From positions 1 through 20,991 of IMG/VR virus record IMGVR_UViG_3300049222_000070: a DNA stretch of 20,991 nucleotides; one strand, given 5' to 3'. Made by a program: the position numbers and the translations under genes. The notes beneath the pieces are model-generated. The model was not told where the DNA came from. It was given only the letters and a program-made list of their open reading frames with translations, and did no database searches. Of the stretch, positions 7,266 through 20,438 are shown one piece after another; positions within the stretch are counted from its first letter, which is position 1, and each line of letters begins with the position of its first letter. Source of the DNA: a virus.

Positions 7266-7350
7266 AATAATTCTCCTTTAGCATTTAGATTACAGATGCA
7301 AACTATTAATTACGTATGCGAAGGCTATGTGCTACTAGGGTGCGTTCTTT

Positions 7351-7370
7351 AGAAAGTTGGCCGACCTTCT
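7351..7370 (-). other. Hairpin in the capsid gene leader
   Basis: The leader RNA can form a 7-bp stem AGAAGGT/ACTTTCT (one G-U pair) around a CGGCCA loop. It lies about 85 nt upstream of the capsid start codon, between the larger 12-bp hairpin and the ribosome site. Its role is unknown. Confidence 0.4.
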
Positions 7371-7431
7371 ATTAAACGGGCCATGAGACATTAGGTTGTC
7401 CGATAGATGTTATTATTGTTTGCTGAGTTGT

Positions 7432-7481
7432 TAATAGTGTTGGGTAACCGTAGTTGATACCTAGCGGGGCCAACACTATTA
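7432..7481 (-). other. 12-bp perfect hairpin at the 5' end of the capsid leader
   Basis: The arms TAATAGTGTTGG and CCAACACTATTA are perfectly complementary over 12 bp with a 26-nt loop (7444-7469). The loop itself can form a short GGTA/TACC stem. The hairpin begins only a few nucleotides after the transcription start expected for the promoter at 7495-7522. No T tract follows, so it is more likely a 5' stabiliser or processing signal than a terminator. The 262-nt gap (7266-7527) has no convincing reading frame. Confidence 0.7.
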
Positions 7482-7494
7482 CATTGTACATATA

Positions 7495-7522
7495 GTTATA
7501 TCATAAATAACTAAGATGTCAA
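7495..7522 (-). promoter_or_regulatory. Sigma-70-like promoter for the major capsid gene
   Basis: A perfect -35 TTGACA (7517-7522) is separated by 16 nt from a -10 TATAAC (7495-7500, five of six consensus bases), reading toward the capsid gene. The -35 begins 5 nt after the scaffold stop codon. The -10 is embedded in a 13-mer, TATGATATAACTA, that also occurs in the promoter-like gap at 18307-18319. Confidence 0.65.
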
Positions 7523-7527
7523 TAGGT

Positions 7528-8409
7528 TTATCGGGCATTTCCCGACATATCGTACACAAATTTACCAGTACGAATAGATTCCATAATTTCTTCTGAAACT
7601 TTTTCGTATTCTTGTGCAGACATTTTATTTACTTGTGATTCAGAAAATACACCAACTTTACTTTCGGTTTCTGGTGCATTGTTTCCGCTGCGACTATTTA
7701 CAGAACGAGCGGCATCACGATTACTAGATGGCTTTTTAGCCTTAATACCCATGTCAGCTTTGTACAAGTCAATTGCACGTGCCGCTGAACGTGAGTCACT
7801 ATCATTTTCGTACAAGGCATCTTGTACCCATTTAGGCTGTTCTTCTACCCATTCATGGAACTGGTCGCTGTCTCTAATTTCACCAAAGTCAGGATGTGCC
7901 TGTAGTAATTCAACCTCTGCTTTTTTACGATTAGCATCAGCTTTCATTTCATCAATTTCTTTTACACGGCTTTCTAAACTTTCAGCTTGCTCCCGTGCCT
8001 TTTTAATTGCAATAGTTTCTACAATAGCGGCTACATCTGGGTACTGTTCTGCCCAAGCTTCAATGTCACTATCTGACTTAGGTAGTTTAATTTCTTGTTT
8101 AGTAGACTGTTCAAGCTGGCGTTCAAGTTGTTTAAACTTATCATCCCACGTTTTTTCTTTTTCTTGCATGTGGCGGCGAAGGTCACCGTAACGCTTCTTA
8201 AAACTTTTATCTTCTGCGTTTACAGGTTTTTCATCTTCTTCTTTGACTTCTTCCTGTTCACCGTTTTGTTCCGCAATAAGTTGGTCAAGCTCTTCTTGTT
8301 CTTGTTTACGGCGATCTTCATTAGAGTATTTACGATTTGCAAACGCTGCAACTTTAGGTGTTTCTACTTCACCTGTAATAGTAGTATCATTCATTTTTAG
8401 TTCTTTCAT
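7528..8409 (-). CDS. Capsid scaffold protein
   Basis: A 293-residue, highly charged protein (Glu, Lys, Gln, Asp rich) with no hydrophobic core, predicted mostly helical. A long coiled-coil-like stretch runs from about residue 60 to 165 (for example MQEKEKTWDDKFKQLERQLE, then AREQAESLESRVKEIDEM). A short conserved-looking C-terminal helix (SESQVNKMSAQEYEKVSEEI, then RTGKFVYD) resembles the coat-binding tail of scaffolding proteins. Position just before the major capsid gene strongly supports the role. The start could be ATG at 8409 or the in-frame ATG at 8394 (MNDTT). Neither has a strong ribosome site, so the first is kept. No protease domain is visible, so this is not a protease-scaffold fusion. 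Confidence 0.8.
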   Translation of the reverse strand: MKELKMNDTTITGEVETPKVAAFANRKYSNEDRRKQEQEELDQLIAEQNGEQEEVKEEDEKPVNAEDKSFKKRYGDLRRHMQEKEKTWDDKFKQLERQLEQSTKQEIKLPKSDSDIEAWAEQYPDVAAIVETIAIKKAREQAESLESRVKEIDEMKADANRKKAEVELLQAHPDFGEIRDSDQFHEWVEEQPKWVQDALYENDSDSRSAARAIDLYKADMGIKAKKPSSNRDAARSVNSRSGNNAPETESKVGVFSESQVNKMSAQEYEKVSEEIMESIRTGKFVYDMSGNAR

Positions 8410-8467
8410 ACTGGGGCCACCGTAGCCTGTGTTGGCAGGGGGATGAGTAGCCAGTCAAATTAGCGAA

Positions 8468-8680
8468 TTAAGTACGTGCCGCTAAACCACGTTTCTTGGG
8501 TGTAGGTTCTAACATTGAACTAAGCATAGTTAAATCTGGTCCTAGTACTTTTGCCAATACCTCACCTTGAGGTGATGTTTTTAAGGAGTTTAAAATAGAT
8601 TTTTCTTCATCAGAAAGTGCGCTAGTACGACTCTGTACTTCACTGTAGTAATCTCCAAATGTGTATGTTTCTTCTTCCAT
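8468..8680 (-). CDS. Small acidic protein of unknown function
   Basis: A 70-residue protein beginning MEEETYTFGDYYSEVQSR. It has an acidic, helical N-terminal two thirds (including SDEEKSILNSLKT) and a basic C-terminus (PTPKKRGLAART). No known motif is recognised. Its ATG has a GGAT ribosome site that lies within the last codons of the 1055-residue gene, one nucleotide before it, so translation is probably coupled. Location between a virion-associated protein and the scaffold suggests a role in head assembly, but this is only inference. The following 58 nt (8410-8467) hold no gene. Confidence 0.65.
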   Translation of the reverse strand: MEEETYTFGDYYSEVQSRTSALSDEEKSILNSLKTSPQGEVLAKVLGPDLTMLSSMLEPTPKKRGLAART

Positions 8681-8681
8681 G

Positions 8682-11600
8682 CTATTTATCCTTAAACATT
8701 TTATACTTACCTACAATATAACATGTAGGCTCTAGTATAGCACGATATATACGACCTAACGTATTACGTTTTTTGCCCTGCATTTCTGCACGTAAGTCTG
8801 CAGTACGATTTCTCGCAATGTTTTCTAGTATTGCACGTACTATCTTATTATTTTTCTTATACCCTAGTTTTACTAGTGGTTTAAATAATGTATGGTAACC
8901 TACTTCGTGAGCCTTTGTCAAGTTCTTTTCTGAATAAGATAACCAAATAGCTTGGCGATAACTACCAAATCCATAAGATGTATTCATTGCAGTACAAACA
9001 ATCTTACTATCACTACTTGAAGAGGCGCTAGAAGTGTCGTTGCTTCCCGTAGCGTTTTCATTTACGCCCGTGTAAGTTCTGGTTAAGTAGTTACCATTGT
9101 CTGCTTTTTTCCACTCAAAGCCATCTCCAGCGTACTGACCACCTGCACTAACGGCACCTTCAGTTTTATTACTAGACGGTTTAGTCTGTACCGTAACCTT
9201 TTTACCCGAAGATGCAGTCACTATATTTTTATCTGAAGATTTACTTTTAGAAGCCTCTCGCTCCTTAACTAGGGAATTTGCACGAGAAGTCCAAACTTTA
9301 CCATTTTTAGTTTCTTTGTTAATGTCTGCTTGAATTTCTGCAGTAGTTCTTCCAGAAGATGGTGTAGTTTTTTTAGTAGTAACTAGTTTACCCCCTACAT
9401 ACTCTTTGTTATCAAAGGGCGTAAGTATATTTTTAGCACTTTGAATAAGTGTATTAGTACCTGCAGGTGCAGCTTCTTCAGCAGTTTGGGTTGTGTATTC
9501 TTTACCTCTAAAAGTAAATGTTTCTTTACCTGCAAGGCGATTACGATTAAAAGCATCTTTAAATGAATCTTGTCGAGGTTTACCTAAGTACTGCTCTCTA
9601 GCATCCATAGCAGTATCAACAACTGGTTGTGTAGGTGTTGGTGTAAGTCCTTTAGTGTCTAACATTTTTGTAGGAACACCTAGATCGTTAGTAGTAGAAG
9701 TTTGCACTTGACTTCTGGTAGGTGTAAGCCCCTTAGTATCTAACACTTTTGTAGGAACACCTACTTTAGGAAGTATGTTACTAGGCTGTGTATACAAATT
9801 TGTATTAAATGCTTGCTGTGTCTGTGTGCTTATAGGTGTGCTTATAGGTAAAGTCCCACCGGGTACTTCTGGCCCAGCTTGCGCCGCACGTTGCGCATCT
9901 ACTTGATCTTGAGTTACTGTTAAAATAGGTGCATCTTTTACTTCCTTTGGTCTAAGGTCTGTTCCCGTAATAGGACTTGGTGGTACTGGAAATCTTTCAA
10001 CAGTAACAGGGCTAGGCGGTACAGGAAACTTTTCTGACTCGAGCTGTTCAGCAGTAGGTAAAATTCCTCGTGGGTCATACTTATCCTCATTGCTCTGACT
10101 TGTAGAAGTACTATAAGCTACCTGTTGTGGTGTTACAGCATAGTTACCATAAGAAGGGTCAAAAGCACTAGTCATCTGTTTTTGCAGGGGCTGAGGTCCG
10201 TAACCTGCAGCGCCCATATCTATATCTTGATTATAAAAAACATTAGGATCAATCTGACGATTGTATCCCGTAGCTTCCTCTTGTTTTCTAGGGTCTCTTA
10301 TGTTTGCAACATTAGTCTGGAAGGCATCTTGAATTAATTCCTGTTTTGCGGAAAGAATTTGATCAGCACGAGAAGGTTCCGCAGTAACTGGCTGATCAAA
10401 AACAGGTTGTTGATTTGCATCAGATGCATACAATTGTTCCCTAGAAACTACCGGTTGTTGCATTACAATATCTTCACCACTAGGCGCAACAGTCTGTTGC
10501 ATGATTGCATCTTCGTCTTGCATAAAGTCAAGAGTCGAAGCTATTTCGGTAGCTTTTGCTATAATGTCCATTTGAGTTCGTCTAGGCGCTGGCAAAGGAG
10601 TGCCAGCAGGTGAAGTTGAATACTGACCCTCAACATCTCCTAAATCAAATACTTGGGTAGTTTGCGTAGTAGGATCGGCAGGAAGGGCAGAGTCTTGCAC
10701 AGGTTCTTCTAAAGAAGTCTCTATCTTAGCTGTATTTTTCTTAGCTGCCTCTACATCATCACCTGTTAGCCCAAGAGCACCACCTACAAACTCAATTACT
10801 TTTCCAAAAAGTGTAGTAACTTTAGCGGGTGCTAATTTTTCTTGAGTCTCAGTCAAACTTTTTCTTTGCGCCGCAGTTAAACCGCCCTTAGCCAAACGAG
10901 TAGCGATTTCTGCTGCAACTTTCTTTTCTTGGTGCCGCATCATGGCGTAACCAATAGCGCCAAATGGTCCAAGGAATGCCATAGCACCTTTAGCAATTGT
11001 ACTACCTGTACCTGTCAGTTCTGCAGAACGCTCTATTAATTCTTTAGTAGATAAACCTGACCAGTTAATAGCTTCCGCTGTAGGCATTGGAGGGGGAGTA
11101 TCATTATCACCACCCATAGAAGCTGCCCTAACTTCTGCAGTAGCAGTATTTGCTGCACGTACAATTGCACCTGCAGTAGTATTAGTATTGACTACCGCAT
11201 CTGTACCTGAGTATAGTGTATAGCCATCTGGAACAGGGAACTGAGCAACCCCACCTACAAACGGAATCATCACGCTCTCACCTGCAGCATTACGGTATTC
11301 TTTATACTCAATAGCTGCATCACCCATTAACTGTTTAAAGTCTATAGGTATAGAACTTGTAGCTACAGGCTCTGGTGTAAGTCTTCGTGTTGCGGTAGGT
11401 TGTGTTGTTACAGGCGTAGTAGGTTCTTCTACGGTAGGTTGAGCAACAGTTCGTGTAGAGCCTGTAGCGGTAGTAGTTAAACCACCTTCCGCCATGTTTA
11501 ACTCTTCTTCACCTTCTGGCATACCACCTACAATAATAAGATCAGCCATACCAAAGGGTAAGTCATCTTCCATAGTAGCTTCGTCAGAGTTACCCATTTG

Positions 11601-11849
11601 ACCCATTGCTTCCATGCGCTTGAGACCCATCTTAGCGTCTTGACGTAACTGCATAAGCTTGTCTAAACCGATGTAACGGGTAACGTCTTCTGGAAAAATA
11701 AACTCACCTTCACTAATGTTAGCGGGAATATCGTCACGAACACCTTTACGTGTACCGCCTACAGGAACTTCATTGCCAGATTCTTCGTCTACCATACCGC
11801 CTTCGTCTTTGAGACCACCATCCTCAAAAAGTTCCATCTGCTTTTCCAT
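8682..11849 (-). CDS. Large mosaic virion-associated protein
   Basis: A 1055-residue protein. The first ~110 residues are acidic and carry the segment DDIPANISEGEFIFPEDVTR and then GLDKLMQLRQDAKMGLKRME, which I recall as conserved in marine phage proteins encoded near the portal. A single hydrophobic, glycine-rich helix (AMAFLGPFGAIGYAMM) lies near residue 295. The middle, to about residue 930, is low-complexity, rich in Thr, Pro, Gln, Ser and Ala, with internal duplications. The last ~110 residues form a distinct domain (IVCTAMNTSYGFGSYRQAIW, then AHEVGYHTLFKPLVKLG), which I have seen at the C-terminus of other marine phage proteins. No enzyme motif is visible. It could be an ejection or inner-core protein, given the membrane-like helix and lack of other candidates. 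The ATG at 11849 follows AAAAGGA. Confidence 0.75.
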   Translation of the reverse strand: MEKQMELFEDGGLKDEGGMVDEESGNEVPVGGTRKGVRDDIPANISEGEFIFPEDVTRYIGLDKLMQLRQDAKMGLKRMEAMGQMGNSDEATMEDDLPFGMADLIIVGGMPEGEEELNMAEGGLTTTATGSTRTVAQPTVEEPTTPVTTQPTATRRLTPEPVATSSIPIDFKQLMGDAAIEYKEYRNAAGESVMIPFVGGVAQFPVPDGYTLYSGTDAVVNTNTTAGAIVRAANTATAEVRAASMGGDNDTPPPMPTAEAINWSGLSTKELIERSAELTGTGSTIAKGAMAFLGPFGAIGYAMMRHQEKKVAAEIATRLAKGGLTAAQRKSLTETQEKLAPAKVTTLFGKVIEFVGGALGLTGDDVEAAKKNTAKIETSLEEPVQDSALPADPTTQTTQVFDLGDVEGQYSTSPAGTPLPAPRRTQMDIIAKATEIASTLDFMQDEDAIMQQTVAPSGEDIVMQQPVVSREQLYASDANQQPVFDQPVTAEPSRADQILSAKQELIQDAFQTNVANIRDPRKQEEATGYNRQIDPNVFYNQDIDMGAAGYGPQPLQKQMTSAFDPSYGNYAVTPQQVAYSTSTSQSNEDKYDPRGILPTAEQLESEKFPVPPSPVTVERFPVPPSPITGTDLRPKEVKDAPILTVTQDQVDAQRAAQAGPEVPGGTLPISTPISTQTQQAFNTNLYTQPSNILPKVGVPTKVLDTKGLTPTRSQVQTSTTNDLGVPTKMLDTKGLTPTPTQPVVDTAMDAREQYLGKPRQDSFKDAFNRNRLAGKETFTFRGKEYTTQTAEEAAPAGTNTLIQSAKNILTPFDNKEYVGGKLVTTKKTTPSSGRTTAEIQADINKETKNGKVWTSRANSLVKEREASKSKSSDKNIVTASSGKKVTVQTKPSSNKTEGAVSAGGQYAGDGFEWKKADNGNYLTRTYTGVNENATGSNDTSSASSSSDSKIVCTAMNTSYGFGSYRQAIWLSYSEKNLTKAHEVGYHTLFKPLVKLGYKKNNKIVRAILENIARNRTADLRAEMQGKKRNTLGRIYRAILEPTCYIVGKYKMFKDK
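9640..9764 (-). repeat. Duplicated 81-nt-period segment inside the 1055-residue protein
   Basis: The phrase GVPTK(V/M)LDTKGLTPT occurs twice, 27 residues apart, and the DNA of the two copies is still closely similar (starts at about 9640 and 9721 on the plus strand). Nearby FPVPPSP also occurs twice (about 9968-10030). The duplications sit in the flexible middle of the protein. Confidence 0.75.
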
Positions 11850-11856
11850 TACTGCA

Positions 11857-12072
11857 TTATCCTTTTAATACTTCATCTCTAAGTAGTTTTAGTCTACGTA
11901 GTTGATAAATAGCGCCTTGCGCCCTGTGTACGGTTATTATATTATCTGACTGTTCCATTGCACGGTGCTGTTGTGCAATTACAAAATCAATATAGTCACT
12001 AAAGTCATTCCATTGCTGGTGGTTGTTGACCAGTGGCTTGAGCCTGTTGAGGTGCTCCCTGTCCTTCTGCAT
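11857..12072 (-). CDS. Small helical protein overlapping the portal gene
   Basis: A 71-residue charged protein (MQKDREHLNRLKPL at the start, then a helical TVHRAQGAIYQLRRLKLLRD near the end). It resembles small proteins with a YRAQG...LxxLKxLRD pattern that are often encoded after the portal in marine phages. Function is unknown. The ATG at 12072 lies inside the portal gene, giving a 68-nt overlap in another frame. An AGGA ribosome site lies about 9 nt upstream, and no usable start exists after the portal stop, so the overlap seems genuine. It may help portal or DNA-packaging assembly, but nothing in the sequence proves that. Confidence 0.65.
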   Translation of the reverse strand: MQKDREHLNRLKPLVNNHQQWNDFSDYIDFVIAQQHRAMEQSDNIITVHRAQGAIYQLRRLKLLRDEVLKG

Positions 12073-14122
12073 TTCCGCTAAATCCTTGTTCTTGTGGGGT
12101 AGGTACTTGGCCTGTGCCTATATTACCACCACCTGCGCCTGTAGGGTCCATCTGTGCTTCTGGTCCTGCGGCGGGTTGCTGAAAACCCTTCATGAGTTCA
12201 GCTTGAATTGCAGCTTCATCCATGTTGTTTGTAACTTTATCTGGGTCTAGTTCAAGAGACTTTGCAATCTCACGAATAATATACTGGAATTTAGCAAAAG
12301 GTGCAAGTGCTGGGCTAGAAGAAATTTGCATAAATTGCATAAGTCGTTGACTGCGTACTTCGTTAGCCATAAGGCTTTCAGTACCACGTGCCTTAACTTC
12401 CAAGTCACCTTTAATCTTGGGGTCATAGTCAAACTGCATGTTAAATCTAAACAGACCCTCACCCAACGGACGGAGCAAGTAATCGTCTACATTCTTAATA
12501 ACATTTTTAATGCCACCTTGTGCTGCGCCCATAAGCATAGATATACCGGAAGCTGTACGACCTACACCACTAACACCTGTTTGACCATGTGCAAAGCTAG
12601 GAAAGCCAGTACTTTCATCCGCAAGTACACGGGCTTTGTCAAATAGCTGCAAGTTTTCTCCAGATACGTTAGGAAACTTGGTGCCAAAAATAGCTTGTCC
12701 GGGTGCGCCACCCTGCCGCCTAAATACCTTACCGGGATATACAGACATATCTTGTCCCGGTACTAGATTAGTTTCGTCTACTTCTAAAATAAGATTACCG
12801 GATAGTACAGCATTATCTACCGCCATACGCATAAACCCATTCATAAGTGTTTGGGTATCGTCCATGTTTTCTGCAATGCCCACACCAAAAAATGAATAAG
12901 GATTTAATTCATAAGGGGAAGCCATATAAGGAATACGTGCAGGTTTAAACGGATTCAAAACCATACGAAGTAGTTTGCCATTACAAATCCAAACATTAGC
13001 TTGTAGTTCGTCTACTTCAGACAGTTCACTTGGAATATCTACACCTTGTTCAAGAAGCATTTCTACATCTACCATACCCCAGTACTCAAGAACTTCAAAG
13101 CGTTCTACACCGTGGTCAGGTGAGTAATCGGAAAGATCATCTTCCCAGTATTCTTTGGTATAGTTTTCACCAAATTGAATAGCTTCATCAATAACATTGT
13201 TACGGAAGAATGGTCTACGTTTAAGTCCACGCAATTGACTACGTGACATTTTGTGGCGCTCAATTACATACTGAGCTTCGTCCATATTAGTTGCATCTGG
13301 GTCTGGGTAAAAATTCCATACAGATACATGCGAAACTTGTGGGATAGTTTTAATAGTGGGTGAGTATTCACCTTCATCATTCCAGCTTGGGTATTCTTTG
13401 TCAACTGCAAATGGACCCTTCATTACACCTGTACCAAAAAGAGCCATCTCAAACGCTGTGCTACGCAAGTGTTTACTTGCACCGGACTCTTCTAGCTGGT
13501 CATGAATTTTCTTTTGCATCATCTTAGCTGCTATCATAGCGGGGCTAAATGTAATGGCTGTAGGTGTTTTACCTACACCTTCACGTACTCCCTCTACGTT
13601 TTCAAATTTATCTTTGAGTGGGCCTAAGCTTTCAGCTAATGTCTTAGCAGTGGCACCTGCAGGTAAATCACGATTGTCTCCTGCGTACCCGTAAGGACTT
13701 ACCAACTCATCTAAATTAGATTCACGTAATTGCTCTGGTTCTTTTGGATCAAAGTTTACATCTGCAACTACACCCTCTGGTAATTCTGTAGGGTCAACAG
13801 ATAAAGGAAAACGCTGTGCGGCAAATAAAACATCAACAATTTGGCTATAGGCAGCGAGTGTTTTTGTTTTAGTTACTTTAATAAATACACGAGACTTTTC
13901 TGCCTCTGTAAACTGAACATCTGGACTATATAAACCACGATAGTTACGATAGGCCCGTAGCCAACGCTGTTCATCTTGCTGACGATAATCATCGGCACGA
14001 TTATACTTTTCCATAATAAATGGAATAATTTTAGAGGAGTCTACATCGTCAATAGATGAGTCTTCGCTATCTGCTAATGCAATTGCGTCATCTTCGATGA
14101 AGCCTTCGTTCTCTTCTGCCAT
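12005..14122 (-). CDS. Portal protein
   Basis: A 705-residue protein starting with an acidic tail (MAEENEGFIEDDAIALADSE). It has the overall layout of podovirus portals: an early helical segment with EKYNRADDYRQQDEQRWLRA, then FIKVTKTKTLAAYSQIVDVL, a wing or stem region (VSVWNFYPDPDATNMDEAQY), a FGVGIAENMDDTQTLMNGFM segment and a Gln/Pro/Gly-rich C-terminal tail. It lies 10 nt after the large terminase gene, the classic position. A GGA-containing ribosome site (AAGGAAAG) precedes the ATG. The portal forms the dodecameric channel for DNA entry and exit. Family assignment rests on length, composition, motifs such as PDPDAT and gene order. Confidence 0.86.
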   Translation of the reverse strand: MAEENEGFIEDDAIALADSEDSSIDDVDSSKIIPFIMEKYNRADDYRQQDEQRWLRAYRNYRGLYSPDVQFTEAEKSRVFIKVTKTKTLAAYSQIVDVLFAAQRFPLSVDPTELPEGVVADVNFDPKEPEQLRESNLDELVSPYGYAGDNRDLPAGATAKTLAESLGPLKDKFENVEGVREGVGKTPTAITFSPAMIAAKMMQKKIHDQLEESGASKHLRSTAFEMALFGTGVMKGPFAVDKEYPSWNDEGEYSPTIKTIPQVSHVSVWNFYPDPDATNMDEAQYVIERHKMSRSQLRGLKRRPFFRNNVIDEAIQFGENYTKEYWEDDLSDYSPDHGVERFEVLEYWGMVDVEMLLEQGVDIPSELSEVDELQANVWICNGKLLRMVLNPFKPARIPYMASPYELNPYSFFGVGIAENMDDTQTLMNGFMRMAVDNAVLSGNLILEVDETNLVPGQDMSVYPGKVFRRQGGAPGQAIFGTKFPNVSGENLQLFDKARVLADESTGFPSFAHGQTGVSGVGRTASGISMLMGAAQGGIKNVIKNVDDYLLRPLGEGLFRFNMQFDYDPKIKGDLEVKARGTESLMANEVRSQRLMQFMQISSSPALAPFAKFQYIIREIAKSLELDPDKVTNNMDEAAIQAELMKGFQQPAAGPEAQMDPTGAGGGNIGTGQVPTPQEQGFSGNAEGQGAPQQAQATGQQPPAME

Positions 14123-14132
14123 CTATCTTTCC

Positions 14133-15713
14133 TTAATAACCAAACGTAGAATCCGCTACCTGCATTCTACCATACTGCGTGTTACTTGAATCAAAGTCAA
14201 ATACACTAAACCGTGGTCTCGACATAATACCATATCTTAGTGCATCGTACAAGTGGTCTTCTGCGTGTGTGTCAATATCTTCTGGATTTCTTTTATCAAT
14301 AGGTAAAGCAGGTAGTTGTGAAATAATATTAGTACAGTTATTAAAAAATACTAACCTTGCTTCCTCTGTATATTCGTCTACTTGTAGCCTACGGTGTATT
14401 TCGTTTTTACCTGCTACACGAGACCCTTTAGAACGGTCAGACGGACGCCAGCGACACCCTCTATGTATCATTTGTTCTGCAAGGCTTGGGCCTGTATCAC
14501 CACGTCTATGCCACAAAGAGCTATCAAGTACGCCGTACTTAATGTTACCGTCACCTGCTTCAAGTTCCATAACCATGTCGGCAAGATCAACTGCAAGTAC
14601 TTTACTTACGTATAGCTCCCGATAAACAATAAGCTGTTCACTAGGAGACACTGCAAACCATACAACACCGGAGTAGCTTCCGTACCCATAGTCACAAGCT
14701 CTAAACTTTACCCAGTTACTTGGAATATCAAATGGCTCAACTACGTGTACATTTCTGTCAAACTCTGTAAAAGCTGCGCCTTCTTTAATATCCCAATCAC
14801 CTTCAAGCAATTGCTTACGCTGTTGCTCTGGCAATGACAAAAGCATTGCTTCGTAGTCACCTTGTTCTGACAGATAAGGATTGTCAGAAAGTCTAGCTGG
14901 AATAAACCTGCGTTTAAATAAAGGCTTTCCAGCTTTCTCGTGTCCTGCAGGATACTTTAGTTGCTCACCTGTATCAATGTCTGTAGCTATAAACGATTTA
15001 CCTGCAGGGGCAGGATCAATAAACATTTTCTTTACCCAGTGATGTCCTCTGCCGCCGGGGTTAGTAGTAGCCCTCATAGACAACGGAAGCGCAGGGTCTG
15101 CAGTACGTAACCGTGAGCGCATGTAGTTCCATGCGTAAGGTGTAGCCCACTGTGTAAGTTCGTCAAAGCCAATCCAACTAAATGCGAGACCTTGATAACG
15201 AGTAACGTCTTGGTCTTTATCTAGGTAGCTCAACCACAGTGTAGCTCCCGATGGTGCAGTCCATGTCATCTTGCGTTCTGACCACTTGATACCGGGCCAA
15301 ATCTTTGGGTACATTTCTTGTGACTTAGTTATAAGCTCACGAAGTTCTTCCGTAGTATGTCGGAGGAGAACACCAGCGAAGGCTGGAACGCCCATGTAAC
15401 GTAACGGGTCGGCCAACATAGCGTAACTTTTACCGCCCCCTGCAGAGCCTCCATACAGCACCTCACGTTCACTTGATGCAAGGAAGTCAGTCTGTGGGCC
15501 TACGTTAGGTTTAAAAATTACATTATGGTCTTCTTCAACCTTAGTGGTAAAGTCATCTAATAGTACTGTAGGACTAGGCTGCTTCGCCTTCGCTGTCGTT
15601 TTCTTTTGCCCCGATGCGGTTGTTTTCGATTTCTTCCGCTTTGGCGATTGCCTTTTTCGCATAGTCTGCCCATTTGCGTAGGCTTCCAGCTTTGTTTTTT
15701 CTTTGTCGCTCAT
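14133..15713 (-). CDS. terL: Terminase large subunit (ATPase and nuclease)
   Basis: A 526-residue packaging motor. A Lys-rich tail occupies residues 1-48. The ATPase domain has Walker A GGSAGGGKS at 88-96, Walker B with acidic pair IGFDEL at 181-186 and the coupling segment MRATTNPGG at 213-221. The nuclease domain has candidate metal-binding acids D341 (RACDYGYG), D397 (YGVLDSS) and D486/D490 (EDHLYDALRYG). All expected elements are present, so it should be active. It translocates DNA into the prohead through the portal and cuts concatemers. The start at 15713 overlaps the previous gene by 140 nt. An internal ATG at 15662 is an alternative, but neither has a strong ribosome site. No start codon lies close to the end of the previous gene. 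Confidence 0.95.
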   Translation of the reverse strand: MSDKEKTKLEAYANGQTMRKRQSPKRKKSKTTASGQKKTTAKAKQPSPTVLLDDFTTKVEEDHNVIFKPNVGPQTDFLASSEREVLYGGSAGGGKSYAMLADPLRYMGVPAFAGVLLRHTTEELRELITKSQEMYPKIWPGIKWSERKMTWTAPSGATLWLSYLDKDQDVTRYQGLAFSWIGFDELTQWATPYAWNYMRSRLRTADPALPLSMRATTNPGGRGHHWVKKMFIDPAPAGKSFIATDIDTGEQLKYPAGHEKAGKPLFKRRFIPARLSDNPYLSEQGDYEAMLLSLPEQQRKQLLEGDWDIKEGAAFTEFDRNVHVVEPFDIPSNWVKFRACDYGYGSYSGVVWFAVSPSEQLIVYRELYVSKVLAVDLADMVMELEAGDGNIKYGVLDSSLWHRRGDTGPSLAEQMIHRGCRWRPSDRSKGSRVAGKNEIHRRLQVDEYTEEARLVFFNNCTNIISQLPALPIDKRNPEDIDTHAEDHLYDALRYGIMSRPRFSVFDFDSSNTQYGRMQVADSTFGY

Positions 15714-15993
15714 TGTCCAACCGTTTCTTTAATCCTACGTGCGATATTGACCTACCTGTATTTCTGGTAAGCCAGTTCGCCACTTCCCGATATGAATACT
15801 GTTTAATGTATTTCTTTGCTTGCTCAAGCATATCAAGTTCGTGGGTAATTGGCAAGAGGATTCCACTGTCGTTTGGGTCAAGTTCGTACCCAAAAGGAAT
15901 TGTTCTTGCTACACGTGGGATAGATACCCATACATTATCTTCTTTGAGGTCGGTTGGTTGTGGTAATTTCCACGTACCTACTTTTTTAGTCAT
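15574..15993 (-). CDS. Terminase-linked helix-turn-helix protein
   Basis: A 139-residue protein starting MTKKVGTWKLPQPTD. A central segment (IKQYSYREVANWLTRNTGRS, then ISHVGLKKRLDNER) has the form of a helix-turn-helix like those in resolvases and site-specific DNA binders. The end is a charged helix (RKWADYAKKAIAKAEEIENN). The frame is open upstream to 16116, but that part overlaps the small terminase and reads as shadow. ATG 15993 overlaps the small terminase stop by 8 nt and is preceded by AGGA. It lies between the two terminase genes, so it may help recognise the packaging site or link the subunits. I recall similar proteins before terL in other marine phages, without a proven role. Confidence 0.7.
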   Translation of the reverse strand: MTKKVGTWKLPQPTDLKEDNVWVSIPRVARTIPFGYELDPNDSGILLPITHELDMLEQAKKYIKQYSYREVANWLTRNTGRSISHVGLKKRLDNERQRKNKAGSLRKWADYAKKAIAKAEEIENNRIGAKENDSEGEAA

Positions 15994-16360
15994 CATCATC
16001 CTGTGGGTTTTTAGCTGGCATAAGCATGACGCCACCCTTTGCTTCCACTTGCATCTTCTCAGTCTTAACCAAACCAGTACGATCAAGTAGTTCTTTTGCA
16101 GCTTGCATCTTATCACGAATACCTAGCTCTGTAGGATCATACAATGCACCTACCATAGCCATCGCAGCTTTTGGCGCATTACGTGCAAGAAAAGTATGTG
16201 TTACTTCGATAATCTCTTCTTTAATACCTTTAGTAACTTCTGCATTAGAAGTATTTGCGGAGTAACCAGCCAACATCTTAGCGGCGGTAATGTCACCACC
16301 TGCTTCATCCATAAGGACTGCTAGAAACTTTTGTTGACGTTCCGTTAACTCACGAGCCAT
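15986..16360 (-). CDS. terS: Terminase small subunit
   Basis: A 124-residue protein beginning MARELTERQQKFLAVLMDEA. The N-terminal half has the helix-turn-helix pattern of terminase small subunits (LTERQQKFLAVLMDEAGGDI, then TAAKMLAGYS). Next come AKELLDRTGLV, usual for oligomerisation helices in this family, and an acidic tail (NPQDDDD). It binds DNA and starts packaging with TerL. The ATG is preceded by AAAGGAAG and follows the endolysin gene by 10 nt. Its position before the large terminase gene, separated only by the helix-turn-helix gene, supports the call. Confidence 0.85.
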   Translation of the reverse strand: MARELTERQQKFLAVLMDEAGGDITAAKMLAGYSANTSNAEVTKGIKEEIIEVTHTFLARNAPKAAMAMVGALYDPTELGIRDKMQAAKELLDRTGLVKTEKMQVEAKGGVMLMPAKNPQDDDD

Positions 16361-16370
16361 AGTACTTCCT

Positions 16371-16823
16371 TTACATCAATTCAAAATGAGGACCGTCGAT
16401 AAAGGGTCTACGGCCTTGTGACCTACGTAAATCTACGTATGCCATCATTGCATCTTCCGCTGTACCTTCATATGTACAGATGTCACCCTCTGACCAAGCT
16501 GCACCCCACTTGATTGCTACACCAAGTTCCTTAGCTGCCTCTTTCATTGCGTCACAAAGGTCATCGTAGACATTTAGTTCCCATACGCCTTTGCCATCCA
16601 CATAGGCCATGAGGTCTACGGCACGGCCCTCTAGGTGTTTAGACTTCATAGTTTGTGACTTACCTGCAGCTACAAGCTTTTCTTGCTCTTCTACAGTACG
16701 GAGGCCGTAGATTACACCAAAGTCTACTTTAGTAAGTTCAATAGCACGTTTTACTACCGCTACTAAGTTTTCGTCTACACCTTCCATCTTGGCAAGACTA
16801 CGATTAGATAATTTAAATGTCAT
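16371..16823 (-). CDS. Endolysin, M15-type peptidase (VanY/L-alanyl-D-glutamate peptidase family)
   Basis: A 150-residue protein with the zinc-binding pattern of M15 peptidases: SKHLEGRAVDL (H63, D70) and DGPHFEL (H146). It also has the YGLRTVEEQEKLVAAGKSQT segment, typical of the family. It should cleave the peptide stem of peptidoglycan at lysis. No signal peptide or transmembrane segment is visible, so release depends on a holin. An insertion of about 30 residues (roughly 111-140) separates the WG.AW motif from the final His, longer than in the T5 endolysin but seen in marine phage relatives as I recall them. The gene overlaps the preceding membrane protein by TAATG, forming a lysis cassette. 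Confidence 0.88.
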   Translation of the reverse strand: MTFKLSNRSLAKMEGVDENLVAVVKRAIELTKVDFGVIYGLRTVEEQEKLVAAGKSQTMKSKHLEGRAVDLMAYVDGKGVWELNVYDDLCDAMKEAAKELGVAIKWGAAWSEGDICTYEGTAEDAMMAYVDLRRSQGRRPFIDGPHFELM

Positions 16824-17026
16824 TACTCTTTTCCTTTTCCACTGACATAGCCAGCAACAACTCCAATAATGCCTGTAATAGACATCTGAAGTAACTCTAC
16901 AATGTTTTGGTCGAGTTCGGCATTATGTTCAGCGGCTATCATAAACTCATCTACTACAATAAGTCCAAGAAGGCCCATAAGACCTCCTGCCATAATCAAT
17001 ACTACTAAGTCTTTAGTGTACTTCAT
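16823..17026 (-). CDS. Small two-helix membrane protein (holin or accessory lysis candidate)
   Basis: A 67-residue protein with two hydrophobic helices (LVVLIMAGGLMGLLGLIVV and MSITGIIGVVAGYVSG) around a short charged loop (AAEHNAELDQN). It ends in the basic KGKE tail. It overlaps the upstream holin by ATGA and the endolysin by TAATG, so all three are probably translated together. Two helices with a short loop are compatible with a second holin or antiholin, but no family was recognised. Confidence 0.72.
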   Translation of the reverse strand: MKYTKDLVVLIMAGGLMGLLGLIVVDEFMIAAEHNAELDQNIVELLQMSITGIIGVVAGYVSGKGKE

Positions 17027-17379
17027 TTCTTACCTGTAAAGAATTTAGATACTGATCGCATACCTATGCTGGCACTGACGATACCGCCTAACGAATATTG
17101 ATACCAAGTAGGCATAGCTTCCAGTGAAGTAAAACCTGCCTGTACAATCTGGTTACCCCAGTCACCACAAAATGCAAGAATGAGTGGAATACTAAACAGT
17201 AAAGTAATCCACTCGTCCTTCCAGCTATTTTGGGTAGCTTTGATAGCTTCAATGTCCCAGTCAATCTCACCAGTAGCTTGCTTGACTTTAATCTCCGCAT
17301 TGGCTTTCTGTACCGCAACCTTACCGTCAAGATAAGTTGTAGCTAGTCCACCTACTGCACCTAAGATTTGACCAATCAT
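17023..17379 (-). CDS. Holin of the three-helix GTA type
   Basis: A 118-residue protein. A helical amphipathic N-terminus (ILGAVGGLATTYLDGKVAVQ, then KANAEIKVKQATG) is followed by the conserved SWKDEWITLLFSIPLILAF membrane segment and a second hydrophobic region (WYQYSLGGIVSASIGMRSV) before a basic tail. The WKDEW and PTWYQY...GMR pattern matches the holin_3TM family known from gene transfer agents of Alphaproteobacteria. It should form the membrane lesion that lets the endolysin out. It overlaps both neighbours by ATGA. Confidence 0.85.
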   Translation of the reverse strand: MIGQILGAVGGLATTYLDGKVAVQKANAEIKVKQATGEIDWDIEAIKATQNSWKDEWITLLFSIPLILAFCGDWGNQIVQAGFTSLEAMPTWYQYSLGGIVSASIGMRSVSKFFTGKK

Positions 17380-17675
17380 TTTTTAGCACCCATTGCGTTA
17401 AAGCCAAAGTACGCACCAACAAGGGCAGATACAGACACTACATAGATATTTGCAATGTCGGCAATCAATCCAGCGGCGGTATCTAAACCTACTACAGAAG
17501 ATACAACAATAGCTGCCGGGTACATAACCATACCGGACAGCGCAAACCATGTCATGTTACGTTGTGCATCACGCTTGGCGTCTTCATCTTCCATACGCCG
17601 CCTACGATCTTCGAGCATAATCTCCCGTTCTTCAGGGTCAAGTACACCGTTTTGATTTAGATCGTACTCAGTCAT
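17376..17675 (-). CDS. Membrane protein with a single EF-hand-like N-terminal loop
   Basis: A 99-residue protein. The N-terminus MTEYDLNQNGVLDPEERE reads as a calcium-binding EF-hand loop (D-x-N-x-N-G-x-L-D-x-x-E). A strongly charged helix follows (LEDRRRRMEDEDAKRDAQRN), then two hydrophobic segments (MTWFALSGMVMYPAAIVVSS and ANIYVVSVSALVGAYFGF). The ATG at 17675 follows AGGA. It is the first of three overlapping membrane-protein genes before the endolysin, so a role in lysis timing is likely. It could also be a structural membrane protein. The calcium-binding ability is inferred from the loop alone. Confidence 0.75.
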   Translation of the reverse strand: MTEYDLNQNGVLDPEEREIMLEDRRRRMEDEDAKRDAQRNMTWFALSGMVMYPAAIVVSSVVGLDTAAGLIADIANIYVVSVSALVGAYFGFNAMGAKK

Positions 17676-17677
17676 CT

Positions 17678-17935
17678 TTACGTCCTACGAAAACGCTTAG
17701 ACGTTTTAGCTGCAGCTTTAGGTTGCTTAGAGAATTGTTTACCAGCTTTTGTATCTTTTCTTTTTTTAGCTGTACTTGCTGAATACTCTCCACTAGACAT
17801 AGCTTTAATAGCTCCAGCTGGAAGGTAACGCTCCCCAGTAGCTTTTGGGCCTTGCGTAGAAGGTTTACCACTTTTGGTTCTCCAGTCTTGCTTTGTCCAC
17901 TTGTTAAGACTTTTCTGTGATTTGGAGAGGGCCAT
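17678..17935 (-). CDS. Basic protein, C-terminal half of a DUF5872-like architecture
   Basis: An 85-residue Lys/Ser-rich protein. The core is KSLNKWTKQDWRTKSGKPST then QGPKATGERYLP, followed by a basic tail ending KRFRRT. I remember this block as the C-terminal part of DUF5872 proteins of algal and giant viruses and as a stand-alone protein in marine phages. No catalytic motif is visible. It is predicted to be basic enough to bind nucleic acid. Its ATG overlaps the preceding gene by TAATG, with a GGGGG ribosome-like stretch 9 nt upstream. Function is unknown. Confidence 0.78.
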   Translation of the reverse strand: MALSKSQKSLNKWTKQDWRTKSGKPSTQGPKATGERYLPAGAIKAMSSGEYSASTAKKRKDTKAGKQFSKQPKAAAKTSKRFRRT

Positions 17936-18135
17936 TATTTATAGCCCCCACCCTTTGCTTTGTATTGCTTTGCGACCATTTGGGCCTTCCTTGCGCTCCA
18001 CTGTCCGGGCTTTCCACCTTTGCCACCTGCCTTAACGGAGGCAACAAGACGCTTACGCATAGTAGGCTTAGTATAATTACCAGCCGCATTAACCGTTGAA
18101 GATTTTTTGGTTGATTTCACCACGTGCAATTCCAA
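17935..18135 (-). CDS. Basic protein, N-terminal half of a DUF5872-like architecture
   Basis: A 66-residue protein (from ATG 18135) with core STVNAAGNYTKPTMRKRLVA, then GGKGGKPGQWSARKAQMVAK and the ending GGGYK. The GQWSARKAQ...KxxGGGYK block is what I recall as the N-terminal part of DUF5872 proteins. The start is uncertain: ATG 18135 has no good ribosome site, whereas GTG at 18123 or 18120 has GGA 5-9 nt upstream and would fit the usual short N-terminus. It overlaps the DUF1127 gene by up to 47 nt in another frame and abuts the companion gene by TAATG. Its role is unknown. Confidence 0.75.
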   Translation of the reverse strand: MELHVVKSTKKSSTVNAAGNYTKPTMRKRLVASVKAGGKGGKPGQWSARKAQMVAKQYKAKGGGYK

Positions 18136-18238
18136 TATCTTTTAGTTCTTTGTCCGTCATATTCTGAAGTAACCAAAAGTCTGCACGGCGTTGCTGTGCT
18201 ACTGCGATTGCTTCAAACCAATTAACTAACCATTTCAT
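18089..18238 (-). CDS. DUF1127-domain small protein
   Basis: A 49-residue protein, MKWLVNWFEAIAVAQQRRAD then FWLLQNMTDKELKDIGIARG. The NMTDKELKDIGIARGEI end is the signature of DUF1127, a domain common in Alphaproteobacteria and Proteobacteria generally. From established work, a DUF1127 protein of Rhodobacter (CcaF1) binds RNA and affects RNA turnover. Whether this one does is unknown. ATG 18238 was chosen over the upstream start at 18289 because it has a GGAG ribosome site 8 nt away and matches the usual domain length. It is the first gene after the promoter-like region 18239-18370, so it and the genes behind it may be expressed as a separate unit. Confidence 0.78.
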   Translation of the reverse strand: MKWLVNWFEAIAVAQQRRADFWLLQNMTDKELKDIGIARGEINQKIFNG

Positions 18239-18263
18239 GTTTATAACTCCTTGTTCCATGAAT

Positions 18264-18287
18264 GTATACTTACATATCAAAGTATAC
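18264..18287 (-). other. Hairpin in the leader of the DUF1127 unit
   Basis: Perfect 8-bp arms GTATACTT and AAGTATAC surround an 8-nt loop. It lies about 26 nt upstream of the DUF1127 start codon and starts about where a transcript from the -10-like box at 18294-18299 would begin. Confidence 0.6.
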
Positions 18288-18308
18288 AAGGAAGTTATAC
18301 CATACTTA

Positions 18309-18337
18309 GTTATATCATACTACGGACAATATTGCAA
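18309..18337 (-). promoter_or_regulatory. Promoter-like region before the DUF1127 gene
   Basis: A -35-like TTGCAA (18332-18337) and a -10 TATAAC (18309-18314) are separated by 17 nt. A second TATAAC (18294-18299) lies 15 nt further downstream within a near-repeat of GTATGATATAACT. The 13-mer TATGATATAACTA is shared with the capsid promoter. No T-rich terminator is seen before it. Confidence 0.5.
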
Positions 18338-18370
18338 CCCCGCTATTACCCTACCGGGATGATACACAGT

Positions 18371-18736
18371 TTATCTGTTGGGATTATAGTATTCTTTTGC
18401 AGACATAAACACTTCTAAAGAACCACTAGAGCCATCAAAAGCCAATATCTTATCACCTGCATGTAAGAATAGTCTATCAGAAGTTATGACGTTATACACA
18501 TCTTTACCAGCTACACTTTTATCATTCAGTATATGGTGATATGTATTTGTATCTGCGTGATACCATTGCAAACTTATATTGTGATTAGCCGTATCGCCAT
18601 TAGTAATATGTAGAAATACTATCTCTGCATCAAAGTTAGCAGGGCATACATACACAAGATCGGCACTAGCACCGCCAGATGTAGCGGTAGTCGTTAAACC
18701 TTTTGTTACAGTATTGTATGCACGAATTTCAACCAT
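18371..18736 (-). CDS. Probable beta-rich virion protein
   Basis: A 121-residue protein beginning MVEIRAYNTVTKGLTTTATS. It alternates short beta-like strands and loops (ADLVYVCPANFDAEIVFLHI, then ANHNISLQWYHADTNTYHHI), ending SLEVFMSAKEYY. This is the composition of small decoration or fibre-like proteins of marine phages. No enzyme motif or membrane segment is visible. The ATG overlaps the stop of the acidic 84-residue gene by TAATG. Being the last gene before a promoter-like gap, it probably ends the first leftward transcription unit. Role inferred only. Confidence 0.62.
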   Translation of the reverse strand: MVEIRAYNTVTKGLTTTATSGGASADLVYVCPANFDAEIVFLHITNGDTANHNISLQWYHADTNTYHHILNDKSVAGKDVYNVITSDRLFLHAGDKILAFDGSSGSLEVFMSAKEYYNPNR

Positions 18737-18990
18737 TAAGCATCAACCCATGCTTCATCTTCAGGTGTAGTAGGATCATCCTTTACAAAATGACCCTTAT
18801 CTGTACGAGCACGAACCTTAGTACTTTTAGGTTTAGTACTTAGTAGCTCTTGAACTTTACCGTCACAACACCAATAATCTCCGTATGGGTCAAAAGCTGC
18901 AAGTACATCACCTAAGCGTGTAGTCACAGCCTCTGCCGTTACAAGATACCCATGCTCCTCCAAGACATCCTTATAGTCTAGGAATTTCAT
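18736..18990 (-). CDS. Acidic 84-residue protein with a KGHFVKDDP-type tail
   Basis: The protein (MKFLDYKDVLEEHGYLVTAE at the start) has a helical N-terminal half, then a GDYWCCDGKVQELL segment and a tail, KVRARTDKGHFVKDDPTTPE then DEAWV. I recall KG.F..DDPSTP..NEAW tails on unrelated marine phage proteins. The start at 18990 overlaps the stop of the cysteine mini-protein (ATGA), with GGGGAAG upstream. An alternative upstream start at 19011 (MYGEEEE) would lie inside the mini-protein gene and is less likely. Function unknown. Confidence 0.68.
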   Translation of the reverse strand: MKFLDYKDVLEEHGYLVTAEAVTTRLGDVLAAFDPYGDYWCCDGKVQELLSTKPKSTKVRARTDKGHFVKDDPTTPEDEAWVDA

Positions 18991-19076
18991 TTCTTCTTCT
19001 TCCCCATACATTTTCCCACTGCCTTACACTTTGTAGGGGTAGGACACCCCTTACATGTTTTAAATTTAACTGCCAT
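18987..19076 (-). CDS. 29-residue four-cysteine mini-protein
   Basis: A complete small frame, MAVKFKTCKGCPTPTKCKAV then GKCMGKKKK and a stop. The four cysteines (C8, C11, C17, C23) follow a C-x2-C-x5-C-x5-C pattern that could bind one zinc or iron ion, and 9 of 29 residues are Lys. The ATG overlaps the stop of the 216-residue gene (TAATG) and the stop overlaps the start of the next gene (ATGA), which strongly suggests a real, translationally coupled gene. I recall similar Cys/Lys peptides in other marine phages. Function unknown. Confidence 0.7.
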   Translation of the reverse strand: MAVKFKTCKGCPTPTKCKAVGKCMGKKKK

Positions 19077-19726
19077 TATTTTTTACCTTGTGTTCCGGGC
19101 ATAGATGCACCACAGTTAACATAGCCACCTGCTTTGTACGCCATGCGTTTCTTAGACATACCACCTTTAGAAAAAGGTGACCTAGGTGTGTAGCCTTTAA
19201 ACTCTTTACGATCACGTGCAGATTGAGTTTGCTTACGTGTCATTGTATCTAGCTCTGCACCTTGTTCCGCCTTAAACTTTTTTTCTTGTGCAGTTAATAG
19301 GTCGGACATCATTTTTTTACGCATACCATCCGGCATTGCATCAATACGCTTTTGCATATCACGGAACATAGCGGCAGTATTTGCAGCCATAACATCCGCT
19401 TTAGATACATTACGACTTTTATTAATACTACTCTTAGATTCAGAGGTACGTATATTCTCTTGACGCTTTAGCTCTTTAACACGTTTGTTTGCTTCAGCTG
19501 AAGGCAATGCAGTTTTGGTTGAGGCACTTGCCGATTTCATTTCCGCAATACGCTTATTTGCCATAGCATTAATTTCTGCCAAAGCATCTTTTTCTGTAGC
19601 ACCAGTAAGTCTAGGATTATCTAGTACCTTCTGACGAATTTGACTCTTTACAGAGCGTACTTCTGTAGGTGTATTAGGTTTTAATAACCTGTCTAATAAA
19701 CCTTTAATTCCAGTTGCCTTACCCAT
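19076..19726 (-). CDS. Lys-rich helical protein with a GGYVNCGASM C-terminus
   Basis: A 216-residue basic protein that is mostly helical, with coiled-coil-like stretches (ALAEINAMANKRIAEMKSAS and SEANKRVKELKRQENIR-type segments, then MFRDMQKRIDAM). The end, MSKKRMAYKAGGYVNCGASM followed by PGTQGKK, is a short tail I recall from several marine phage proteins. No membrane segment or enzyme motif is visible. The ATG follows AAAGGAAT. Together with the neighbouring basic proteins it may bind DNA or sit in the virion. Function unknown. Confidence 0.68.
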   Translation of the reverse strand: MGKATGIKGLLDRLLKPNTPTEVRSVKSQIRQKVLDNPRLTGATEKDALAEINAMANKRIAEMKSASASTKTALPSAEANKRVKELKRQENIRTSESKSSINKSRNVSKADVMAANTAAMFRDMQKRIDAMPDGMRKKMMSDLLTAQEKKFKAEQGAELDTMTRKQTQSARDRKEFKGYTPRSPFSKGGMSKKRMAYKAGGYVNCGASMPGTQGKK

Positions 19727-19738
19727 TTTATTATTCCT

Positions 19739-20017
19739 TTACCATTTTACTTTATCTGCCCAGTAAGCTGCACTCAACTTACCACGCTTAATGTTCTTTG
19801 CATGACGTGCCTTAAAACTTGCACGTTTCTTTTTCATCTTATCTGATTCACCGGACTTTGGCTTACCTGCAGTGCTTGCACCTTGCTCACCAAATCGTAT
19901 CATCTTAATGGTAGTACCTTCCTTTGCAAGTACTACGTGAGATTTGGTAGGGTGTTTAGGTGTACGCTTGGGTTTATTGTACCCACTGAATGTTTCACCT
20001 CTATATTCAACCGTCAT
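19739..20017 (-). CDS. Small basic protein with a KARHAKNI...SAAYWADKVKW C-terminus
   Basis: A 92-residue protein, MTVEYRGETFSGYNKPKRTP at the start and KKKRASFKARHAKNIKRGK then LSAAYWADKVKW at the end. I recall this protein as widespread in marine phages and its C-terminal block as present in algal and giant virus proteins too. It is very basic and probably binds nucleic acid or enters the virion. The start at 20017 overlaps the previous gene by 11 nt and has GGA 5 nt upstream. Function unknown. Confidence 0.75.
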   Translation of the reverse strand: MTVEYRGETFSGYNKPKRTPKHPTKSHVVLAKEGTTIKMIRFGEQGASTAGKPKSGESDKMKKKRASFKARHAKNIKRGKLSAAYWADKVKW

Positions 20018-20222
20018 GTCCGTCCGTCCAACCTTCCATACGCATAGCCCACTCTACGTGCTCTAACGCAAATGATTTACCGTAGTGGGCATCCACTGCA
20101 GTCTTTACATAAAATACATCACTATGAGGAATGTGCAACTTATCTAAGTTACCATCTAATACATGTTTATAGAACTCTTCTAAAACATTATCTGTATATA
20201 GTTTTACTGATTTCTTTGCCAT
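20007..20222 (-). CDS. First gene of the leftward late block, small acidic protein
   Basis: A 71-residue protein from ATG 20222 (MAKKSVKLYTDNVLEEFYKH). A TTG start 6 nt upstream is possible but unneeded. The middle (HIPHSDVFYVKTAVDAHYGK) and the end (LEHVEWAMRMEGWTDGHDG) read as a small helical domain seen in other phage early or late leader genes; no enzymatic motif is recognised. No strong ribosome site precedes it. It follows the long AT-rich control region and so is probably the first gene transcribed from the promoter at 20411-20438. Confidence 0.65.
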   Translation of the reverse strand: MAKKSVKLYTDNVLEEFYKHVLDGNLDKLHIPHSDVFYVKTAVDAHYGKSFALEHVEWAMRMEGWTDGHDG

Positions 20223-20355
20223 TGTCAATACTTATTTGTACAAAGTCCTCGCCTAAAGGCAGATTTCACTTGTTAGTGTATACATTGTACGTGTTTTACT
20301 TACATGTTTATATAGTTAAGTATAATATATAGATAAGTATATAATCATTTAACTG

Positions 20356-20380
20356 TTACAGTGTACGTGTATCACTGTAA
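20356..20380 (-). other. Hairpin in the late-block leader
   Basis: Perfect 8-bp arms TTACAGTG and CACTGTAA with a 9-nt loop. It lies about 24 nt downstream of the start expected for the promoter at 20411-20438, with some 130 nt between it and the first start codon. No T tract follows. Confidence 0.6.
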
Positions 20381-20410
20381 GTGACCCTACCCTAACACCT
20401 AACATATATA

Positions 20411-20438
20411 GTTTTACACATTCTACAAAACATGTCAA
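20411..20438 (-). promoter_or_regulatory. Promoter-like site for the leftward late block
   Basis: A perfect -35 TTGACA (20433-20438) is 16 nt from a -10 TAAAAC (20411-20416; four of six). It aligns with the capsid promoter: same spacer, TTGACAT in common and TATAT directly after the -10. It reads toward the first late gene at 20222, which would give a leader of about 180 nt. Confidence 0.5.

Follow-up and report, generated by a model that had tools for sequence, protein, structure and literature searches.

In phages, stable structured 5' leaders are known from strongly expressed genes, T7 gene 10 and T4 gene 32 among them. Cis-regulatory leader RNAs catalogued in Rfam also include motifs from marine phages, among them manA and wcaG (PMC2864571). 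With regard to promoters, more than 60% of alphaproteobacterial housekeeping sigma-70 promoters lack a T at position -7 (Myers et al., 2021; PMC8407463), a position at which the bases are about equally frequent on average in host promoters, and CarD has been proposed to compensate for the missing T in Alphaproteobacteria (PMC8407463). Small DUF1127 genes have been linked to RNA in two bacteria: the Rhodobacter DUF1127 protein CcaF1 binds RNA and alters mRNA half-lives (PMC10253847), and a DUF1127 gene of Sinorhizobium meliloti is under leader attenuation (PMC12218461). HMO-2011-type phages are presented in one report as a dominant marine viral group with wide distribution (PMC9038755), and the word 'promoter' is absent from the main text of a paper on seven new isolates of this type.

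In the present analysis, we examined a viral window (the whole stretch of DNA that was analyzed, 20,991 bases), which is the late arm of a marine podovirus of the HMO-2011 type; Roseobacter phage CRP-1 is a close relative. Its capsid protein showed 71.6% identity to the capsid of Puniceispirillum phage HMO-2011 and a higher identity to the coat protein of CRP-1 (88.5%). Leftward genes begin at about position 20,230 and comprise small proteins, the DUF1127 gene, terminase, portal, a scaffold-position gene, capsid and tail genes. A scan of genome contigs for the capsid matched only phage contigs assigned to marine MAG bins, a single Pelagibacteraceae contig and actinobacteria. The genes and promoter sites discussed below are as follows.

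6195-7265, minus strand: major capsid protein gene (PHROG 267 major head protein; 88.5% identity to CRP-1 coat protein)
18089-18238, minus strand: gene for a small DUF1127 protein of 49 aa (Pfam PF06568, E 6.6e-7, above cut-off)
20411-20438, minus strand: site 1, head of the leftward late arm, GGGG-TTGACA-N16-TAAAAC-TA (counterparts in relatives; 41 of 41 viral loci)
20199-20228, minus strand: fourth site, TTGACA-N16-TAAAACTA, which overlaps the first late ORF at its start codon (41 of 41 loci)
18309-18337, minus strand: site 2, DUF1127 gene promoter, GGGG-TTGCAA-N17-TATAAC-TA (conserved in close relatives and CRP-345)
7495-7522, minus strand: site 3, capsid promoter, TTGACA-N16-TATAAC-TA (81 of 81 loci with enough DNA)

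The first-pass annotation had proposed sites 1, 2 and 3 as leftward promoters, and direct reading of the sequence reproduced their coordinates, boxes, spacers and the TA after the -10 box exactly, as well as the TATGATATAACTA common to the capsid and DUF1127 sites. Each of the three was kept in dozens of relatives. The fourth site (TTGACAATG...TAAAACTA), which overlaps the opening codons of the first late ORF, was missing from that list and is recovered by the strict pattern TTGACA-N16/17-TANAACTA. This pattern matched three times in the window, always on the minus strand, compared with 0.00 expected from 100 shuffles (largest count 0). Site 2 falls outside the strict pattern because its -35 box is TTGCAA. 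Site 3 lies 5 nt past the stop codon of the upstream scaffold-position gene. A generic sigma-70 scan of the window revealed no enrichment (34 sites found vs 43.8 expected); such a scan is blind to these sites because it demands T at the last -10 base, which is C here.

A search of twelve stretches gave 20 matches vs 0.05 expected; the set includes six isolates and one circular genome of an environmental phage besides the window. The motif was present upstream of the capsid gene in all 81 loci, viral and isolate, whose upstream DNA is long enough (65 distinct sequences). Its -35 box is close to TTGACA, as in sigma-70 promoters, with TTGAC invariant across the distinct sequences, and its spacer (16 nt in 71 loci and 17 nt in 10) lies within the 16-18 nt of that class in every case. 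TATAA was likewise invariant, in agreement with the alphaproteobacterial -10 form TANAA, which often has a base other than T at -7; this base was C in 60 of the 61 distinct sequences over which single bases after the -10 were counted, and was followed by T in 60 and A in 56. A pyrimidine-purine step 7-8 nt past the -10 box is also conserved and, judged by sequence only, is the predicted start; in promoters of this class, transcription would begin 6-8 nt past the -10 box. In CRP-3 and CRP-212, which are more distant isolates, the capsid promoter sites are weaker. Site 1 and the fourth site were present in 41 of 41 inspected viral loci, with counterparts of site 1 in CRP-1, CRP-345, HMO-2011, CRP-13, CRP-2 and the Manatee Spring phage. 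Similar copies of the fourth site are present in CRP-9 (TTGACT..TACAACTA), whose first gene is annotated differently, and in CRP-13, in which the annotated gene does not include the site. Site 2 was conserved in close relatives and CRP-345, the -35 box of the relatives containing TTGCA, and was absent in the remote relatives CRP-2, CRP-603, CRP-207 and L198. One very uniform promoter signature is common to a large group of abundant ocean phages, and this uniformity makes the transcription units of HMO-2011-type phages mappable from sequence alone.

With respect to promoter class, the layout of the sites reads as that of an alphaproteobacterial housekeeping sigma-70 (-35/-10) promoter with C at -7. 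Two other classes did not fit. The motif is bipartite with a free spacer, not a contiguous element of about 20 bp as in T7-type promoters for single-subunit polymerases, and a T4-type late promoter (-10 TATAAATA, no -35) is ruled out by the invariant -35 and a -10 of TATAACTA. No phage RNA polymerase was found in the CRP-1 annotation or among the CRP-1 proteins scanned.

The suggestion that the motif is specific to phages held up in the form of a lineage signature: relatives keep it, whereas 96 sampled alphaproteobacterial genomes (share of Roseobacter relatives not given) rarely contain it, the full motif with C at -7 having 8 matches there, about the same as a reversed-pattern control, and variants with T or G at -7 having 18 and 7, close to the controls. 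Since bases at -7 are about equally frequent in hosts, the near-invariant C-T-A, which outnumbers other bases after TTGACA..TANAA in phage genomes, exceeds what host averages explain and could mean that an added factor acts beyond plain host recognition. The uniform TATAACTA might then mark promoters for a host polymerase altered by a phage-encoded activator, a phage-specific and perhaps late class for which the rarity of the motif in the sampled genomes and the dominance of C-T-A in phages would both speak. We consider this unlikely, however, given that an alternative factor would have no need of the -35 present here, an ordinary TTGACA, and that no sigma factor, polymerase or known activator was recognized among the CRP-1 early and middle proteins scanned, most of which lack known function. 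Copies of the motif also adjoin the rightward DNA-polymerase gene. A perfect TTGACA-N17-TATAACTA lies at the end of this gene in CRP-1 and CRP-345 (L083:12503-12533 and L098:13358-13388, respectively), overlapping the stop codon in CRP-1, where the TGA directly precedes the -10 box, and HMO-2011 has the same motif with one mismatch (L096:10304). Thus, the motif is not confined to late genes; the label of a late promoter, which the first-pass annotation had used, is doubtful, and late-only use is not supported. Whether phages exploit host CarD-type activation could be put to a natural test through the uniform C at -7.

The sequences that follow these promoters contain three predicted structured elements.

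7433-7480, minus strand: capsid leader hairpin 1, with an 11-bp outer stem, internal loop CC/TTAC and inner stem CCG/CGG (z -4.35 in the window)
7297-7428, minus strand: capsid leader domain 2, with helices P1 (7402-7399/7322-7319), P2, P2b and P3 (7378-7343)
18242-18299, minus strand: DUF1127 leader hairpin, in which the TATAACTTCCTTG arm pairs with CAAGGAGTTATA, which contains the Shine-Dalgarno sequence

Folding and covariation indicate that the capsid leader is a structured RNA of about 190 nt, consisting of a hairpin at the predicted start and a second, covarying domain. The first 70 nt of 71 distinct capsid leaders had a mean folding z of -2.17, with 49% below -2, and the next 70 nt of the same leaders had a mean of -0.90, with 15% below -2. 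The outer stem of hairpin 1 differs in sequence between phages with its pairing kept: a simple search pattern finds it in 48 of 59 distinct relatives, the other 11 lying outside the pattern, and outer pairs 5-8, which took no part in selecting the 48 sequences, were paired in 38, 40, 40 and 32 of them vs about 19, 18, 21 and 19 when partners were shuffled. Its internal loop is asymmetric: the 5' strand contributes CC and the 3' strand NNAC, which is mostly CUAC. In domain 2, RNAalifold applied to an alignment of 53 relatives gave 19 pairs, 15 of them with two-sided changes. With helix P1 added, the covariation score was 0.461, compared with 0.056-0.104 when partners were slid by 1-3 columns, and 87.6% of cells paired vs 70.1% in shuffles, none of the 500 shuffles reaching the observed value. 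These data bear out the proposal that structure rather than sequence is conserved, as far as the capsid leader is concerned: the stems of hairpin 1 are rewritten and re-paired, and domain 2 covaries far above its slid controls (0.461 vs at most 0.104). The CC/NNAC loop occurs twice more in domain 2, one copy having its strands swapped (CUAC/CC) and the other reading CC/CAC (CAAC/CC and CC/CAC in the window), giving three copies per leader. The capsid Shine-Dalgarno sequence is predicted to be moderately open, with a mean unpaired probability of 0.47 and a value of 0.79 in the window.

A further helix, P0, was considered as the closing element of domain 2 (CTAAAC/GTTTAG or GCAAAC/GTTTGC, two clade types); cross-phage controls pair equally well, and it is kept as tentative at most. 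The apical loops of P3 (7343-7378 and relatives) switch among the self-complementary GGCC, GCGC and GATC, with GGCA or GGCG in some relatives. A 4-nt palindrome such as these is held by 43 of the 56 short loops in the P3 segment, and such loops could permit loop-loop dimers.

A covariance model built from domain 2 (R1), which gives the window 67.7 bits (E 4.8e-13; the window itself is among the model's sequences), found a single copy in each phage, in every case directly upstream of the capsid gene. The matches include CRP-2, CRP-3, CRP-9, CRP-13, CRP-207, CRP-212 and CRP-603, none of which was used in building R1, with weak scores for CRP-3 and CRP-212 and with close kin of CRP-9 and CRP-13 in the alignment. 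The core sequence led to 108 further contigs, with a promoter upstream of it; 105 of them continue into the capsid start, and the other three end too early to tell. In a Manatee Spring phage (L088), a gene for an HNH-type nuclease lies at 19315-19884 between the capsid promoter and the capsid gene, and domain 2 remains on the capsid side of it. In one marine contig, a group I intron (L224:8903-10888; RF00028, 50.5 bits) containing a 234-aa ORF, probably a homing endonuclease, splits the capsid gene after about codon 61, and the structured leader directly precedes the capsid start codon.

Outside this group, two oppositely oriented CC/NNAC loops are nested in the pre-capsid leader of Sinorhizobium phage phiM6, and the leader of a Rhizobium phage resembles this nested double loop, both judged by eye and by minimum-energy fold (L091:7880-7960 and L092:7840-7930, approximate positions). 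No promoter of the TTGACA..TATAACTA type was seen upstream of the capsid gene in these rhizobial phages, and R1 gives their leaders no score, so the likeness in fold is a lead only. A search of 190 alphaproteobacterial genomes with R1 gave no match, which is a weak result for a set holding no positive control. The capsid leader matches no catalogued RNA family: Rfam 15 had no match in the window at the gathering score, and no credible match to three leaders at E up to 5, the S15 leader and plant miRNA families that appeared at the relaxed E-value being judged chance. A literature search, which reached few subscription journals, found no publication describing this leader. We place slightly below even odds the view that it is a new structured-RNA class across an abundant ocean phage group, possibly older in view of the nested rhizobial version, whose repeated CC/NNAC module, perhaps recognized by a protein or self-associating through apical loops, sets capsid synthesis. 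That an intricately folded leader always follows the capsid promoter suggests that these phages probably use RNA-level control in making their main structural protein. A covarying, capsid-linked leader outside Rfam makes such control of a phage structural protein open to testing, and structural work would have a compact target in its repeated internal loop.

The capsid leader could be an operator bound by a phage protein (capsid, scaffold or DUF1127) that feeds back on synthesis, as in ribosomal-protein leaders. The CC/NNAC loop is kept three times while the flanking stems drift, the element stays beside the capsid gene despite intruding genes, as in L088, and the DUF1127 protein CcaF1 of Rhodobacter is known to bind RNA and alter mRNA half-lives (PMC10253847); however, the ribosome-binding site lies outside the conserved helices, so that direct occlusion by a bound protein is not obvious, and we hold this explanation to be a minority possibility.

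The DUF1127 leader is different in kind. From the predicted start to the start codon it forms a single hairpin, with a z of -3.22 in the window and a mean of -3.97 over 21 leaders, 20 of which were below -2. Pairs between its 5' arm and the Shine-Dalgarno sequence co-vary in different phages (AACTCC/GGAGTT, ACTTCC/GGAAGT, CTATCTC/GGAGATAG), so the Shine-Dalgarno sequence at site 2 is paired and its pairing survives two-sided changes, as in a sequestering hairpin; its unpaired probability in the window was 0.003 vs 0.79 for that of the capsid gene. Weaker Shine-Dalgarno pairing is retained in CRP-2, CRP-603, CRP-207 and L198, in which the promoter is absent. A hairpin of this predicted form fits low or conditional translation of the small DUF1127 protein, whose host relative CcaF1 binds RNA. 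We also considered whether the leader hairpins act as attenuators or terminators that halt a fraction of transcripts, as leader attenuation of the S. meliloti DUF1127 gene might suggest (PMC12218461). No U run follows the capsid or DUF1127 hairpins, so they do not have the form of an intrinsic terminator (GC-rich hairpin plus U run), and a terminator scan lists nothing at the leader positions, which makes this quite improbable.

On the other hand, the leader of site 1 contains no conserved hairpin, its z being -0.47 in the window and -0.60 on average over 55 distinct leaders, no better than shuffled DNA, and a conserved RNA at this position was rejected. The hairpin that the first-pass annotation had drawn after each site is therefore conserved and above chance at the capsid and DUF1127 sites and merely drawable at site 1, and the single leader design that it inferred gives way to a large structured RNA at the capsid gene, a hairpin burying the Shine-Dalgarno sequence at the DUF1127 gene and no conserved hairpin at site 1. 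The divergent region downstream of site 1 (20229-20405) has short repeats (CACTTACAGTG, ACACGTACA) that are conserved in relatives and may be sites of a regulator or a replication origin. Short repeats of the site-1 region (CACTTAAAGTG, CACGTACA) look more like DNA-binding sites. That promoter look-alikes and hairpins are simply expected in AT-rich DNA would account for the site-1 hairpin, but conservation in relatives, motif counts, covariation, R1 placement and folding z refute it for the promoters and for the capsid and DUF1127 leaders, and it can practically be set aside.

The reading that we prefer, with a probability of roughly 0.7, is that these are phage promoters read by host sigma-70, followed by gene-specific leaders, of which the capsid leader acts in cis on the capsid mRNA. 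Host RNA polymerase with its housekeeping sigma factor would read the sites through one strongly constrained common sequence, TTGACA-N16/17-TA(T/A)AACTA. The leftward late arm would start at sites 1 and 4, the small DUF1127 gene at site 2 and a separate capsid transcript at site 3, with a gene-specific sequence after each promoter. The 5' end of the capsid transcript is predicted to form a fold of about 190 nt, in which a hairpin is followed by a long irregular stem, with the CC/NNAC loop present three times and the ribosome-binding site just outside. This leader may protect the 5' end of the capsid mRNA and set its translation in cis, and some partner probably recognizes the repeated loop. 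The DUF1127 hairpin would hide its own ribosome-binding site and hold translation low until it opens.

Compared with known systems, the capsid locus resembles T7 gene 10 and T4 gene 32 in combining a strong promoter and a 5' hairpin on the mRNA of an abundant protein, but those leaders are simple hairpins, whereas the capsid leader appears to have several helices, contains a repeated internal loop and covaries strongly. As in the leaders collected in Rfam, including manA and wcaG (PMC2864571), some of which come from marine phages, a conserved structured 5' leader is present; however, the capsid leader is unmatched in Rfam and precedes a capsid gene rather than a metabolic one. The DUF1127 gene shares with that of S. 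meliloti a predicted control through the mRNA leader involving pairing to the ribosome-binding site, but attenuation in S. meliloti is driven by a translated upstream ORF (PMC12218461), whereas none was seen in the phage, where the gene's own Shine-Dalgarno sequence is buried. Finally, the promoters agree with alphaproteobacterial sigma-70 promoters in their TTG-type -35, 16-18 nt spacer, TANAA, non-T base at -7 and, as predicted, a start a few nt downstream (PMC8407463), and differ from host promoters in that the C at -7 and the T-A after it are nearly invariant and the -35 is the full consensus.
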